A DNA stretch of 64,000 bases from Rhizobium bangladeshense (GTDB taxonomy: Bacteria > Pseudomonadota > Alphaproteobacteria > Rhizobiales > Rhizobiaceae), in NCBI RefSeq assembly GCF_017357245.1, contig NZ_CP071614.1, positions 248,001-312,000 of the forward strand. The letters run 5' to 3'. Made by a program: the position numbers and the translations under genes. This document shows positions 39,702-44,960 of the stretch, piece after piece. The notes under the pieces were generated by a model. It made no database searches. It was not told where the DNA came from and worked only from the letters and a program-made list of their open reading frames with translations. Each line of letters opens with the position of its first letter. The first letter of the stretch is position 1.

Positions 39702-39784
39702 AAACTCCGTTTTGATGAGCGATACCGGTCGACGAAAAGGGCGCGAACCCTCGCGACCCGATGACGATTTCATGGGAGGATGAT

Positions 39785-41881
39785 ATGGCGGCGAACGTCC
39801 GGCTTCTGGAAAACCGGTGGGATGATGGTTACGCGGCAGGTCTCGACGAACCGGGCAAGCTGCTCTATCGCTCCAATCTGCTCGGCGCCGACAAGCGCAT
39901 TACCAATTACGGCGGCGGCAACACTTCGGCCAAGGTGATGGAAACCGATCCGCTGACGGGCGAGAAAGTCAAGGTTCTCTGGGTCAAGGGCTCGGGCGGC
40001 GATGTCGGCACCATCAAGCTCGACGGTTTCGCGACGCTCTACCAGGACAAGCTGGAAGCGCTGAAGGGCATCTACAAGGGTGTCGCGGACGAGGACCGCA
40101 TGGTCGGTTTCCTGCCGCACTGCACCTTCAACCTGAACGCTCGCGCCGCCTCGATCGACACGCCGCTGCACGGTTTCGTGCCTTTCACCCATGTCGACCA
40201 CATGCATCCCGATGCGATCATCGCGATCGCCGCGTCGAAGAATTCCCGGGAACTGACGAAACGGATATTCGGCGACGAGATCGGCTGGCTGCCATGGCGC
40301 CGTCCGGGCTTCCAGCTCGGCCTCGATCTCGAAGCCTTCGTCAAGGCCAACCCCAACGCCAAGGGCGTCGTGCTCGAAAGTCACGGCCTCTTCACCTGGG
40401 CAAACGACGCCAAGGCTTGCTACGAGCTGACGCTCGATATCATCAATAAGGCGATCGAATGGTTCGCTGGCCAGACCGAGGGCAAGACGATTTTCGGCGG
40501 CGCGGCCGTTCAGAACCTGCCGGTTGCCGAACGCCGCGCCATCGCCGCCCGGCTGATGCCCGAGATTCGCGGCCGTATCGGCAAGCAGGAGCGCAAACTC
40601 GGCCATTTCGACGATCAGGATGCGGTTCTGGAATTCGTCAATTCCAACAACCTGCGCCCGCTCGGCGCGCTCGGCACCAGCTGCCCGGACCACTTCCTGC
40701 GCACCAAGATCCGTCCGCTGATCGTCGAATTCGATCCCGCCAAGCCGGATGTCGATGCGATCGTTGCCGGTCTCGACAAGGCGCTGGAAGATTACCGCGC
40801 CGACTACGCCCGCTATTATAACGACTGCAAGCATGACAATTCGCCCGCCATGCGCGACGCCAATCCCGTCATCTTCCTTGTTCCCGGCGTCGGCATGCTG
40901 TCCTTTGCTCGCGACAAGGCGACTGCCCGTATCGCCAGCGAATTCTACGTCAATGCCATCAACGTCATGCGCGGCGCCTCGACGGTCTCGGAATATCAGG
41001 GCCTGCCGGAGCAGGAAGCCTTCGATATCGAATATTGGCTGCTCGAAGAGGCCAAGCTGCAGCGCATGCCGAAGCCGAAGAGCCTTGCCGGCAAGGTCGC
41101 CTTTGTCACCGGTGGCGCCGGCGGCATCGGCCGGGCGACGGCCGCGCGCCTGGTCGGGGAAGGCGCTTGCGTGGTGCTTGCCGATATCGATCAGGCAGCG
41201 CTTGAATCGACCGAATCCGAATTCGTGAAGAAGTACGGCGCGGACGCCGTGCGCACGGCGAAGCTCGACGTCACCAAGGAAGACGCCGTTATCGCCTCCT
41301 TCGCCGAATCCTGCGTCGAATTCGGCGGCGTCGATATCCTCGTCTCGAATGCAGGTATTGCCTCCTCGGCGCCGATCGAAACGACCGAGCTGTCGACGTG
41401 GAACCGCAACATCGACATTCTGGCGACCGGTTATTTCCTAGTCTCGCGTGAAGCTTTCCGCCTGTTCCGTCGTCAGGCGCTCGGCGGCAACGTCGTCTTC
41501 ATCGCATCGAAGAACGGTCTCGCCGCGTCACCGAACGCTTCCGCCTATTGCACGGCGAAGGCCGCAGAAATCCATCTCGCCCGTTGCCTGGCGCTGGAAG
41601 GAGCCGATGTCGGCATCCGTGTCAACACGGTCAACCCGGATGCCGTTCTGCGCGGTTCCAAGATATGGAGCGGCGAGTGGCGCGAACAGCGTGCGGCCTC
41701 CTCGAAGATCGAGGTCGACGAGCTGGAGGAACATTACCGCAAGCGGTCGATGCTGAAGCTCAACGTGTTCCCGGAAGATATTGCCGAGGCGGTATATTTC
41801 CTGGCGTCTGATCTTTCGGCCAAATCGACCGGCAATATCATCAATGTCGATGCCGGCAATGTCCAGAGCTTCACGCGCTAG
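39785..41881 (+). CDS. rhaD: Bifunctional rhamnulose-1-phosphate aldolase / short-chain dehydrogenase RhaD
   Basis: A 698-residue two-domain enzyme. The N-terminal class II aldolase (about 1-420) has the metal-site motif FTHVDHMHPDAI and the later LESHGLFTW histidine. The C-terminal short-chain dehydrogenase (from about 438) has VTGGAGGIGRATA, SNAG and the catalytic Tyr-Lys pair in SAYCTAKAA near residue 587. It splits rhamnulose phosphate to dihydroxyacetone phosphate and L-lactaldehyde, and oxidises the aldehyde or another intermediate. ATG 39785 is chosen for the GGGAGGA site upstream. It starts the plus-strand arm of the locus. Confidence 0.94.
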   Translation: MAANVRLLENRWDDGYAAGLDEPGKLLYRSNLLGADKRITNYGGGNTSAKVMETDPLTGEKVKVLWVKGSGGDVGTIKLDGFATLYQDKLEALKGIYKGVADEDRMVGFLPHCTFNLNARAASIDTPLHGFVPFTHVDHMHPDAIIAIAASKNSRELTKRIFGDEIGWLPWRRPGFQLGLDLEAFVKANPNAKGVVLESHGLFTWANDAKACYELTLDIINKAIEWFAGQTEGKTIFGGAAVQNLPVAERRAIAARLMPEIRGRIGKQERKLGHFDDQDAVLEFVNSNNLRPLGALGTSCPDHFLRTKIRPLIVEFDPAKPDVDAIVAGLDKALEDYRADYARYYNDCKHDNSPAMRDANPVIFLVPGVGMLSFARDKATARIASEFYVNAINVMRGASTVSEYQGLPEQEAFDIEYWLLEEAKLQRMPKPKSLAGKVAFVTGGAGGIGRATAARLVGEGACVVLADIDQAALESTESEFVKKYGADAVRTAKLDVTKEDAVIASFAESCVEFGGVDILVSNAGIASSAPIETTELSTWNRNIDILATGYFLVSREAFRLFRRQALGGNVVFIASKNGLAASPNASAYCTAKAAEIHLARCLALEGADVGIRVNTVNPDAVLRGSKIWSGEWREQRAASSKIEVDELEEHYRKRSMLKLNVFPEDIAEAVYFLASDLSAKSTGNIINVDAGNVQSFTR

Positions 41882-41929
41882 AGCAGTTCAGCAATAGTGC
41901 AGCGGTTTTGCGTCAAAGCAAACGGGCAG

Positions 41930-42088
41930 CTACTTCCTCAGGATCACCCATATTGCGTGGATGATCCCAGGCACATAGCCGCAAAGCGTCAGCAATATGT
42001 TGAGCCAGAAATGCAGGCCGATCCCGACCTGCAGAAATACGCCAAGGGGCGGCAGGATGATCGCAAGAAGAATGCGGACGACGTCCAT
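41930..42088 (-). CDS. PMP3/YqaE-family small hydrophobic protein
   Basis: A 52-residue protein with two membrane helices and the complete PMP3 signature: MDVVRILLAIILPPLGVFLQ, then GYVPGIIHAIWVI. Family members (yeast Pmp3, plant RCI2, bacterial YqaE) help keep membrane potential under salt and cold stress. The start is ATG at 42086-42088, behind an AGGAGC site. It lies in the 286-base gap between rhaD and rhaI on the opposite strand, so it divides an otherwise co-directional pair. The bases on the rhaD side (41882-41929) look like a degenerate rhizobial intergenic repeat. Confidence 0.92.
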   Translation of the reverse strand: MDVVRILLAIILPPLGVFLQVGIGLHFWLNILLTLCGYVPGIIHAIWVILRK

Positions 42089-42167
42089 CGTAGCTCCTGA
42101 GTTTTGAAGACATGTAAGAGTTAGAACGCAAACCACCGTTCTGTGGTTCGCGACGTGGGAGGAAACA

Positions 42168-43460
42168 ATGGCTGAATTCAGGATTGCGCCGGATCTGGTG
42201 GCGACGGAAAATGAAAAACGGACAGCGGCGCTGAAAGCCGATTACGAAGCACTGGGTGCGACGCTTGCGCGCCGCGGCGTCGATATCGAAACTGTCACCG
42301 GCAAGGTGGCTGAGTTCTTCGTCGCGGTTCCTTCCTGGGGCGTGGGGACTGGAGGCACGCGCTTTGCCCGCTTTCCCGGCACCGGAGAACCGCGCGGCAT
42401 CTTCGACAAGCTCGACGATTGCGCCGTCATCAATCAGTTGACCCAGGCAACGCCGAATGTCTCTCTGCATATTCCCTGGGACAAGGCGGATGCACGAGAG
42501 TTGAAGGCCAAGGGCGATGCGCTCGGCCTCGGCTTCGACGCAATGAATTCGAACACCTTTTCCGACGCGCCGGGCAAGGCCCATTCCTACAAATACGGCT
42601 CGCTCAGTCACACCGATGCGGCAACCAGGGCACAGGCGGTCGAGCACAATCTCGAATGCATCGAGATCGGCAAGACGATCGGCTCCAAGGCGCTGACGGT
42701 CTGGATCGGCGACGGTTCGAACTTCCCCGGCCAGAGCAATTTCACCAAGGCGTTCGAGCGTTACCTCGCCTCGATGGCTGACATTTACAAAGCCTTGCCC
42801 GACGATTGGAAGCTCTTCTCCGAGCACAAGATGTATGAGCCGGCCTTCTATTCGACGATCGTTCAGGATTGGGGCACCAATTACCTGATCGCCCAGACGC
42901 TTGGCCCGAAGGCATATTGCCTCGTCGATCTCGGCCACCATGCGCCGAATACCAATATTGAGATGATCGTTGCCCGCCTGATCCAGTTCGGCAAGCTCGG
43001 CGGCTTCCATTTCAACGATTCGAAATATGGCGATGACGATCTCGATGCCGGCGTGATCGATCCCTACCGGCTTTTCCTGGTTTTCAACGAGCTTGTCGAT
43101 GCCGAGCAGCGCGGCGTCAACGACTTCAACCCAGCTCACATGATCGACCAGTCGCACAATGTCACAGATCCGATCGAGAGCCTGATCAATAGCGCCAACG
43201 AAATCCGCCGCGCCTATGCCCAGGCGCTCCTCGTCGACCGTAAGGCGCTCGAGGGTTACCAGCACGACAATGACGCGCTGATGGCGTCGGAAACGCTGAA
43301 GCGCGCCTATCGCGCCGATGTGGAGCCAATCCTTGCCGAAGCGCGCCGCCGGGCCGGCGGCGCAATCGACCCAATCGCCGCCTATCGCGCCAGCGGCTAC
43401 CGCAAGAAGGTGTCGGACGAGCGTCCGGCGTCGGTTGCCGGTGGCGGCGGCATCATCTGA
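42168..43460 (+). CDS. rhaI: L-rhamnose isomerase RhaI (rhizobial type)
   Basis: A 430-residue sugar isomerase of the rhizobial/pseudomonad L-rhamnose isomerase type. It carries SLHIPWDKADARELK near the N-terminus, the metal-site motif SEHKMYEPAFYSTIVQDWG, the aspartate/histidine motif CLVDLGHHAPNTN and GGFHFNDSKYGDDDLDAG. It converts L-rhamnose to L-rhamnulose with Mn2+ or similar metals in the cytoplasm. A GGGAGGA site lies just before the ATG. It should be read from the rhaD promoter, or from one of its own between it and the antisense PMP3 gene. Confidence 0.94.
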   Translation: MAEFRIAPDLVATENEKRTAALKADYEALGATLARRGVDIETVTGKVAEFFVAVPSWGVGTGGTRFARFPGTGEPRGIFDKLDDCAVINQLTQATPNVSLHIPWDKADARELKAKGDALGLGFDAMNSNTFSDAPGKAHSYKYGSLSHTDAATRAQAVEHNLECIEIGKTIGSKALTVWIGDGSNFPGQSNFTKAFERYLASMADIYKALPDDWKLFSEHKMYEPAFYSTIVQDWGTNYLIAQTLGPKAYCLVDLGHHAPNTNIEMIVARLIQFGKLGGFHFNDSKYGDDDLDAGVIDPYRLFLVFNELVDAEQRGVNDFNPAHMIDQSHNVTDPIESLINSANEIRRAYAQALLVDRKALEGYQHDNDALMASETLKRAYRADVEPILAEARRRAGGAIDPIAAYRASGYRKKVSDERPASVAGGGGII

Positions 43461-43526: not shown

Positions 43527-43985
43527 CTACGGTTTCCAGGCGCCGGCAATCTGGCGGGTGGCGATGTTCAGCCGGTTCCACACATTGATATTCGCGATGG
43601 CGATGACGAGAGCTGCAAGGCTCCGGCCGTCATAATGCCGGGTCGCCTCGTCCCAAATTTCGTCAGGCACGGGGTCGGCGCGGTCGCTGGCGCGAGTCAC
43701 CGCCTCGGTCAAGGCGAGGGCTGCCCGCTCGGCATCGCTATAGTAGGGGGCATCGCGCCAGCCAGCGATGGCAAAGAGACGCTCATCGCTCTCGCCGTGT
43801 TTGCGGGCAATGCGCCAATGGCCATCGATGCAGACGCTGCAGCCGTTGATCTGGCTGGCGCGCAGATTGACGAGCTCGAGCAGCTTTGGCGAAAGGCCTG
43901 CTTCGGCCGGTACCTTGCCGAGTGCATTGAGCGCCTGCATGGCCGCGGGAAGGACAAGGGCGGGATTTCCCATTCTCTCCTGCAT
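43527..43985 (-). CDS. AhpD-like carboxymuconolactone decarboxylase family protein (ECF41 partner)
   Basis: A 152-residue all-helical protein with the redox pair and histidine of the AhpD core, INGCSVCIDGH (C-x2-C-x3-H), and the second half LTEAVTRASD plus LAALVIAIANINVWNR. Such proteins reduce peroxides or act as disulfide-based antioxidants. The start ATG at 43983-43985 has AAGGAG upstream. It is divergent from an ECF41-type sigma gene. Carboxymuconolactone decarboxylases are one of the enzyme types regularly found next to ECF41 genes (known), and the sigma promoter motif stands in front of it. Confidence 0.9.
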   Translation of the reverse strand: MQERMGNPALVLPAAMQALNALGKVPAEAGLSPKLLELVNLRASQINGCSVCIDGHWRIARKHGESDERLFAIAGWRDAPYYSDAERAALALTEAVTRASDRADPVPDEIWDEATRHYDGRSLAALVIAIANINVWNRLNIATRQIAGAWKP

Positions 43986-44030
43986 GATATGTCTCCTTGA
44001 TGCGTTTCGTGTTCGACGATCCGCCGGCCC

Positions 44031-44057
44031 TGTCACACCGGCCGGATTTCATTCGTC
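44031..44057 (+). promoter_or_regulatory. ECF41-type promoter facing the sigma factor gene
   Basis: TGTCACA (44031-44037), 16 bases, CGTC (44054-44057) matches the promoter consensus published for ECF41 sigma factors (TGTCACA-N16-CGTC). The start codon of the sigma gene lies 37 bases after the -10. This implies autoregulation. Confidence 0.8.
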
Positions 44058-44065
44058 ATGGCCTT

Positions 44066-44092
44066 GACGCAACCCAGCGGAGGAATGTGACA
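44066..44092 (-). promoter_or_regulatory. ECF41-type promoter facing the CMD gene
   Basis: On the minus strand TGTCACA (44092-44086), 16 bases, CGTC (44069-44066) repeats the ECF41 consensus exactly with the same spacer. It points to the AhpD/CMD gene 80 bases downstream. It is the mirror of the plus-strand promoter, centred on 44061-44062, so the two promoters stand back to back. Confidence 0.82.
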
Positions 44093-44093
44093 A

Positions 44094-44960
44094 GTGGACG
44101 AGAAAAGATGGCTGGCGGACGAATTCGAGGCGAACCGGTCGCATTTGAGGGCGGCGGCCTACCGTATGCTCGGTTCGCGCAGCGAGGCGGAGGATGCCGT
44201 TCAGGAGGCATGGCTGCGCCTCAACCGCACCGACACGACAGGGGTCGACAATCTCGGAGGCTGGCTCACGACCGTGGTGGCGCGCATCTGCCTCGACATG
44301 CTGCGCGCCCGCAAGAGCCGGCGCGAGGAGCCGCTGGAAATGCCTGTGCACGCGGCGATTGTCGATCCCGCCAAGGACCCGGAGCGGGAAGCCGCCTTTG
44401 CCGATTCGGTCGGTCTAGCGCTGCTCGTTGTGCTACAAACTCTGGCGCCTGCCGAGCGCGTCGCCTTCGTGCTGCACGACATGTTCGATCTGCCCTTCGA
44501 CGAGATCGCTCCGATCATCGGCCGTTCGTCCGCCGCCACCCGGCAGCTCGCAAGCCGCGCCCGCCGCCGCGTGCAGGGCACGGGCGAAGCGCCGGAGGTA
44601 GACCTCGGCCGCAAGCGGACGATCGCGGAGGCCTTTCTGACGGCGTCGCGCAACGGCGATCTGGGGGCGCTGGTTGCGGTGCTCGCCCCAGACGTCGTCT
44701 TCCGGCCGGATGCGACGGCTGCCCGATACGGCATCGGCGCAATGCGCGGCGCGACCGCCGTGGCCGAAGCCTTCAAGGGCCGGGCGCAGGCGGCTCAAAT
44801 GGCCATCGTCGAGGGTGAGCTCGGCTTTGTCGTGCTCGTCGGAGGCCAAGTTCGCGTGGCGGTGTCGCTGACGATCGAAGAGGGCCGGATTGCCGCAATC
44901 GACGCCGTCGCCGATCCGGATCACCTGGAACAGATCGAATTTTCGGTCCTTGACGACTGA
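44094..44960 (+). CDS. ECF41-type RNA polymerase sigma factor with C-terminal SnoaL-like domain
   Basis: A 288-residue sigma factor. Region 2 (about 10-78) has AAYRMLGSRSEAEDAVQEAWLRL and WLTTVVARICLDMLRAR. Region 4 (about 115-165) has LAPAERVAFVLHDMFDLPFDEIA and GRSSAATRQLASRARRRV. The extra domain (about 175-288) is a SnoaL/NTF2-like fold with FRPDATAARYGIGAMRG and DPDHLEQIEF at the end. In ECF41 factors this domain replaces an anti-sigma factor. The linker WLPEP motif is not seen, so it may be a related subgroup. The GTG start at 44094 has GGAGG 10 bases upstream. It is divergent from its likely target gene, with mirrored promoters between. Confidence 0.9.
   Translation: MDEKRWLADEFEANRSHLRAAAYRMLGSRSEAEDAVQEAWLRLNRTDTTGVDNLGGWLTTVVARICLDMLRARKSRREEPLEMPVHAAIVDPAKDPEREAAFADSVGLALLVVLQTLAPAERVAFVLHDMFDLPFDEIAPIIGRSSAATRQLASRARRRVQGTGEAPEVDLGRKRTIAEAFLTASRNGDLGALVAVLAPDVVFRPDATAARYGIGAMRGATAVAEAFKGRAQAAQMAIVEGELGFVVLVGGQVRVAVSLTIEEGRIAAIDAVADPDHLEQIEFSVLDD

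Follow-up and report, generated by a model that had tools for sequence, protein, structure and literature searches.

A putative symmetric bidirectional promoter between a SnoaL-type ECF sigma factor gene and a divergent CMD gene in Rhizobium bangladeshense

Here we describe a 62-bp module at positions 44031-44092 of the window (the whole 64,000-nucleotide stretch of Rhizobium bangladeshense DNA that was analysed), which, with a probability that we put at about 0.75, is a single bidirectional promoter, symmetric and interlocked, serving the SnoaL-type ECF sigma factor encoded next to it. Two complete copies of the ECF41 promoter are interlocked in mirror image, with their CGTC boxes 8 bp apart and the predicted start of each inside the -10 element of the other.

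Results

Genes on either side of the module

The module lies between two divergent genes, one for an ECF sigma factor that carries a SnoaL-like extension and the other for a CMD/AhpD-domain protein containing a CxxC motif; these identities agree with the sequence-only reading of this DNA, which took the latter for an antioxidant-type enzyme, a putative role. The presumed target gene, at 43527..43985 on the minus strand (152 aa, ATG at 43985), encodes a protein that matches the Pfam CMD profile with 74.4 bits (cut-off 23) and the NCBIfam ahpD_dom model with 59.4 bits (cut-off 27.8), and that has the CxxC of a COE neighbour expected of an ECF41 locus, here CSVC; a putative ribosome-binding site, AAGGAG, lies at 43993..43998 (minus strand). 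Similar DNA was found in 126 plasmid records, 122 of them from Rhizobium, the top one being from R. bangladeshense (97.9%), and all 15 annotated plasmids among the matches listed name the gene carboxymuconolactone decarboxylase. In the region next to the CMD gene (window 39761-43460), an annotated L-rhamnose isomerase gene, rhaI, adjoins it, and sigma, CMD and rhaI genes occur together within the plasmid match in 15/15 cases among the matches listed; the gene preceding rhaI resembles one for a rhamnose-pathway aldolase/dehydrogenase.

The sigma factor gene occupies 44094..44960 on the plus strand (288 aa, GTG start at 44094), and its putative ribosome-binding site, GGAGG at 44079..44083 (plus strand), falls within the spacer of the CMD-directed promoter. 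The ECF sigma2 and sigma4 domains score above their Pfam cut-offs (r2, 48.7 bits; r4_2, 40.1 bits), while SnoaL_2 in the C-terminus reaches 26.7 bits, 0.3 under the cut-off of 27, and the NCBIfam SigJ subfamily model (PRK09636) gives 250.7 bits, below its cut-off of 271. The structure of Mycobacterium tuberculosis SigJ (PDB 5xe7), however, aligns with the sigma over residues 9-277 (E 1.1e-42), SnoaL-like domain included, and because the alignment extends to residue 277 the protein can be taken to carry the C-terminal SnoaL-like extension typical of ECF41, the SnoaL_2 score notwithstanding.

Two interlocked promoter elements

The sigma-directed promoter consists of a -35 element TGTCACA at 44031..44037 (plus strand), each base of which is conserved in 22-25 of 25 relatives from the window's family, the Rhizobiaceae, and a -10 element CGTC at 44054..44057 (plus strand), present in 25/25. 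Its mirror image, the CMD-directed promoter, has an exactly matching CGTC at 44066..44069 and TGTCACA at 44086..44092 (both minus strand), the latter between the Shine-Dalgarno sequence and the start codon of the sigma gene. The two CGTC boxes are separated by the 8-bp centre ATGGCCTT (44058..44065), around which CGTCATGGCCTTGACG forms a near-palindrome.

The earlier claim that TGTCACA-N16-CGTC occurs exactly on both strands, at 44031-44057 and 44092-44066, was borne out, with both 27-bp matches at the correct coordinates, the plus-strand element facing the sigma gene and the minus-strand element the CMD gene. As had been recognised, the motif is the target promoter published for ECF41 (Wecke 2012, PMC3426412) and also that of Sinorhizobium meliloti RpoE9. 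Chance is an unlikely source of the pair, as the earlier reading had held, given that 0.03 matches are expected per window and that two were never seen together in 100 window shuffles. Across the genome (6,348,611 bases, 6 contigs) the sole exact N16 matches are this pair, and the backwards pattern, used as a control, gave one match. Taken together, the window shuffles, the genome scan and the reversed control of the phylum sample described below led us to reject a chance origin of the mirrored pair. The two-gene circuit that had been proposed remains the best prediction because the genome lacks a third exact site, an absence that refers to exact matches, about 100 chance hits being estimated at one mismatch. 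The sequence-only reading was thus right but understated: it missed the interlock and the fixed geometry, as well as the motifs reported before both genes in 2012.

Relaxing the spacer to N15-17 added six matches in the genome (L271-L276), which we rejected as further targets, since they are a repeat, lie in long open frames or look like a pho-box-like site. L271, L272 and L273 are copies of one repeat (contig C1, near 2814423, 2925287 and 3398054) that mimics the promoter motif with an N17 spacer; it reads TGTCACAG..ATCCAGCCAC and, about 80 bases on, has a stretch with CCTGTGACGAGCAC at its end. L274 and L276 are within long open frames, and L275, which no frame of at least 90 codons crosses, resembles a pho box.

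Predicted start sites

The start sites were predicted by analogy with RpoE9 and from the base preferences of one-way promoters. In S. meliloti the mapped start is 9 nt downstream of the RpoE9 motif, and the last base of the promoter as printed is a G, the ninth after CGTC (PMC6180224, PMC3616915); a start G has likewise been mapped at ECF41 promoters in two organisms (Wecke 2012, PMC3426412). G occupies the ninth position after CGTC in 15/20 exact one-way promoters upstream of less similar sigmas, and in 16 of 22 single promoters that belong to sigmas without the linker motif WLPEP, where it is always followed by A; of the same 22 promoters, 20 have A at position 1 and 16 have T at position 8. 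On this basis the sigma transcript is predicted to start at the G at 44066 (plus strand), in the minus-strand -10 element, and the CMD transcript at 44057 (minus strand), in the plus-strand -10 element, 9 bp apart. In the mirrored module this ninth position is occupied by the G of GACG, which is complementary to the last -10 base of the opposite promoter. Both transcripts would therefore begin with GACG, and the predicted leader would be 28 nt long for the sigma transcript and 72 nt for the CMD transcript. With starts at these predicted positions, the module would show the reciprocal overlap of -10 element and start on opposite strands that marks the bidirectional promoters of Warman and Grainger.

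A gap of 8 bp in the motif-first scan

When genome contigs were scanned for GTCACA-N16-CGTC and its mirror image at gaps of 0-30, at least 119 stretches were found (L033-L151). Among the matches listed, the gap between the two CGTC boxes is 8 in 106/119 pairs, the others being 9 (five), 11 (three) and 5, 10, 21, 23 and 24 (one each). The pairs listed span seven named phyla, with gap 8 in 44/54 from Actinomycetota, 48/49 from Pseudomonadota, 5/5 from Acidobacteriota, 4/6 from Chloroflexota, 2/2 from Myxococcota and 1/1 each from Dormiibacterota, Armatimonadota and an unassigned genome. Among these same matches 105 of the 106 gap-8 modules are distinct, and their median identity at unspecified positions is 37.5%. 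In two loci with gaps of 23-24 (L062 and L136), a GACG stands exactly 8 bp past the first CGTC, so that the mirrored -10 register is present, with the reverse -35 element spaced for a second box.

In 113/119 of the mirrored loci listed, the gene next to the pair encodes a relative of the window's sigma, and a CMD gene lies opposite in 70/119. Among the six listed without an adjacent sigma, L087 and L117 have fewer than 130 bases on the sigma side, and in L128 the sigma match lies 444 bp away. Of the 43 listed loci with a sigma and no CMD opposite, 32 have a divergent frame, 31 of which were scanned (L048 was dropped); these frames, which were chosen by length and some of which may be wrong, matched NmrA, NAD-binding and epimerase models four times each, perhaps in the same members, glyoxalase three times, MFS twice and other families once or twice each.

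When the gap-8 modules listed were oriented by the sigma gene, the consensus T at the first base of the -35 element was found on the sigma side only in 51/106 and on the partner side only in 5/106, counts that are descriptive, as the sequences are related; the partner-side base is often G. Translation signals may account for part of this asymmetry, because in the oriented profile of the matches listed the partner's -35 element often lies between a purine-rich stretch and ATG.

A gap of 8 bp in the protein-first searches

Since the scan selects on the motif itself, relatives were also sought by protein. In the Rhizobiaceae, 96/297 genomes match the sigma at E 1e-30, with identities that split into at least 56% and at most 44%. 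The close set comprises 25 loci (the window's own, L001, and L004-L027, the last a partial match), and all 25 have the mirrored pair at gap 8 and a divergent CMD gene. The module is 1-2 bp ahead of the sigma start in 24/25, and 15 different distances, ranging from 43 to 91, separate it from the CMD start. Pairwise identity is 0.94 in the elements and 0.64 elsewhere, a comparison that favours the elements, by which the module was found. Two members of the set, L019 (G194), where the split sigma gene gives two matches in different frames, and L005 (G250), where the match contains one TGA, both have the gap-8 double promoter.

The less similar family set holds 95 rows, of which 25 were fetched. 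WLPEP is present in all 25 sigmas, none of these 25 loci has a mirrored pair, and in 21 the CMD gene is upstream on the same strand, preceded in 20 of the 21 by the promoter with at most two mismatches. Mirrored pairs at gaps of 31-61 were found in none of 294 family genomes.

Four distant genomes supplied further relatives, as did the Kribbella family (38/38 genomes matched); all were picked because they contain scanned mirrored loci, a choice that biases the frequency of pairs and the gap size less so. With gaps of -4 to 120 allowed, the 45 protein-found pairs outside the close set have gap 8 in 32 cases, 9 in 12 and 69 in one, or 24, 12 and one once loci common to the motif scan are removed; six of the 12 gap-9 pairs are weak (3-4 mismatches). 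Only 2/2000 mononucleotide shuffles produced any pair in this search. The module mostly lies about 1 to 35 bp from the projected sigma start, and 111-156 bp in L172, L176 and L180.

A usable protein for the WLPEP tally was available at 146/149 protein-found loci. Among the 102 sigmas without WLPEP, the gap is 8 in 55 and 9 in 12, and 35 lack the pair; among those with WLPEP, 43 have no pair and one has the gap-69 pair. As 35/102 sigmas without WLPEP have no pair under the limits used, the pair is not obligatory for them, and 22 of these 35 have a single sigma-directed promoter. In a phylum sample the exact pair was present in 10/398 genomes (among them the window's own and three already known from the searches above), always at gap 8, and the reversed control gave none. 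A class-wide protein search at E 1e-55 matched the window's genome alone among 289, which makes the subgroup uncommon among the genomes sampled there. In all these counts, related loci do not represent independent events.

A sister subgroup of ECF41

The window's sigma lacks WLPEP in the linker between sigma2 and sigma4, which reads EEPLEMPVHAAIVDP, and DGGG and NPDKL in the extension, which has FRPDATAARYG and ADPDHL. Judged by these absences, it is not a canonical ECF41. The doubt raised earlier over the missing WLPEP was justified, the sigma grouping with relatives that lack all three motifs and retain the promoter. We assembled 252 sigma rows from the scanned loci (matches listed) and the protein-found loci, some loci occurring twice. 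Of these, 173 are paired at gaps 8-24, 169 without WLPEP, DGGG and NPDKL and four with WLPEP alone; the 174th paired row, the gap-69 locus L264, carries all three, and the 78 rows without a pair divide into 43 with and 35 without WLPEP. On a tree of 115 sigmas sampled from the 252, the mirrored state is clustered, with 9 changes vs 38.6 when shuffled. No single branch separates the WLPEP-type rows cleanly from the rest (2 are misplaced), and constraining the other 90 rows together was not rejected (p-AU 0.19). We place the window's sigma in a sister subgroup of ECF41 that shares the ECF41 promoter and that may coincide with one of the other SnoaL groups (ECF56, ECF205, ECF294 and ECF295).

Discussion

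We propose that RNA polymerase carrying the adjoining sigma would bind the 62-bp module in either orientation, one of which would lead to reading of the sigma gene, and hence to positive feedback, and the other to reading of the CMD/AhpD-like gene, with the SnoaL-like domain probably exerting control over the sigma. The 8-bp centre would equal the distance from the -10 element to the start G, so that each start base would pair with the last base of the opposite -10 element. The same few bases would then be melted in both open complexes, and only one direction could initiate at a time. As one sigma would feed both directions, competition may split the output between feedback and target. In the 25 family relatives the gap is constant at 8 while the distances to the CMD start vary, which argues for a bidirectional promoter.

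Why the register has been kept is a separate matter. Selection may have maintained it because each initiation would be a choice between feedback and output, in which case the register would mark an ECF41 sister subgroup without the WLPEP/NPDKL latch, and we give this reading an even chance; a start bubble shared by sigma and target could offer shared control, exclusion and lower noise. Alternatively, and quite conceivably, although we would put it somewhat short of even odds, the gap may be a by-product of the start site, a second promoter arising most easily at an existing CGTCA-N6-TGA register, because such a one-way promoter already holds three of the five mirrored CGTCA bases. The symmetry then need not have been selected for regulation, and the idea is compatible with the bidirectional mechanism and predicts the same starts. 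It is consistent with the GA at positions 9-10 after CGTC in 16 of the 22 single promoters, and the same logic has been published for sigma70 two-way promoters (PMC10268837, PMC12825309), but it accounts for how the pair arose and does not explain why both -35 and both -10 elements have been retained.

It seems improbable that two ordinary ECF41-type promoters were packed closely by happenstance, their fixed gap inherited without a role of its own. Divergent ECF41/COE pairs with the motif are indeed known (before 36 sigma and 41 COE genes of 55 pairs; PMC3426412), and the clustering of mirrored sigmas on the tree implies that ancestry accounts for part of the sharing. Neither promoter alone sets the distance between the -10 elements, however, yet it is 8 or, less often, 9; among the matches listed, which span seven phyla, drift has brought identity at the unspecified bases down to 37.5%, in the protein-found loci the distances to both genes vary, and no pairs at 31-61 bp were found in the 294 family genomes. 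Divergent genes often have a common operator, and the near-palindromic module might in principle be one, bound by a dimeric repressor or activator encoded elsewhere, with the likeness to a sigma promoter secondary. Among the matches listed, spacer position 1 is mirror-complementary in 72 vs 61 expected and the outermost centre pair in 93 vs 88.5, as an operator would have it, but the three inner centre pairs reach 31, 27 and 32 vs 36, 31 and 38 expected, 12/16 spacer pairs are under expectation, and a sigma gene of one subfamily adjoins in 113/119 loci. With so little mirror complementarity outside the promoter elements we rejected a dimer operator, which we consider very improbable.

Much of the arrangement is already known. 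Wecke 2012 (PMC3426412) described TGTCACA-N16-CGTC for ECF41 and found 55 divergent ECF41/COE pairs in 373 loci, often with the motif before both genes, so that finding two mirrored motifs between divergent genes of this kind is in itself no novelty. The ECF41 loci described there, with Bacillus licheniformis and Rhodobacter sphaeroides as study organisms, share with the window this promoter, a SnoaL-type extension, a CxxC COE neighbour and, in those 55, the divergent layout; they differ in that the tested promoters stand before the CMD gene, and in WLPEP and the C-terminal motifs, which the window's sigma lacks. M. tuberculosis SigJ, similar over residues 9-277, also has WLPEP, unlike the window's sigma. 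In the RpoE9/SMb20029 system of S. meliloti, RpoE9 uses the same promoter, with a spacer that starts with CCGGC as does the window's, and a CMD gene is the single target found, but CMD and rpoE9 are likely cotranscribed from one promoter (PMC6180224, PMC3616915). The fixed 8-bp geometry is apparently new as far as our literature searches reach. In the portion of Wecke 2012 available to us (PMC3426412), we found nothing on overlap of mirrored promoters, symmetry, palindromes, bidirectionality or the spacing of pairs; a search for ECF41 together with bidirectional promoters found no paper, ECF papers on divergent, overlapping or palindromic promoters did not, by title and opening of the abstract, concern a mirrored geometry, and for divergent ECF/CMD pairs in Rhizobium the S. 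meliloti work alone was found.

The closest parallel is provided by the sigma70 bidirectional promoters of Warman and Grainger, in which starts 7-25 bp apart and reciprocal overlap of -10 and start, both likewise predicted here, accompany the exclusion of one polymerase by the other (PMC10268837, PMC12825309). Those promoters have a near-symmetric TATAAT box and spacings of 10, 18 or 23 bp, whereas the module in the window would serve an alternative sigma and combines two full -35 elements with separate -10 boxes in a single conserved register, the starts being predicted to lie 9 bp apart. Competition between the two directions has been shown for sigma70, where it matters at high activity only and lowers noise (PMC12825309).

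Two-way promoters are reported to be widespread in bacteria, with variable spacing and a little-studied role. The module described here would be a naturally occurring example that prefers a single register; among the matches listed it accompanies one sigma subfamily in seven phyla, and in it a sigma and its output would have a common start site. A part of 62 bp allows direct tests of exclusion and noise control, and CGTCA-N6-TGACG between two -35 boxes offers a search rule for such circuits. It also sets apart a subgroup of SnoaL sigmas that cannot be controlled through the contact between WLPEP and NPDKL which has been proposed for ECF41.

Six genomes (G064, G075, G149, G207, G212 and G219) carry a sigma of the mirrored type together with a less similar relative of the ECF41 type, with a potential for cross-talk between the two; at the second locus of four such genomes, the same motif is absent before the CMD gene in L171 and present in L168, L169 and L170.
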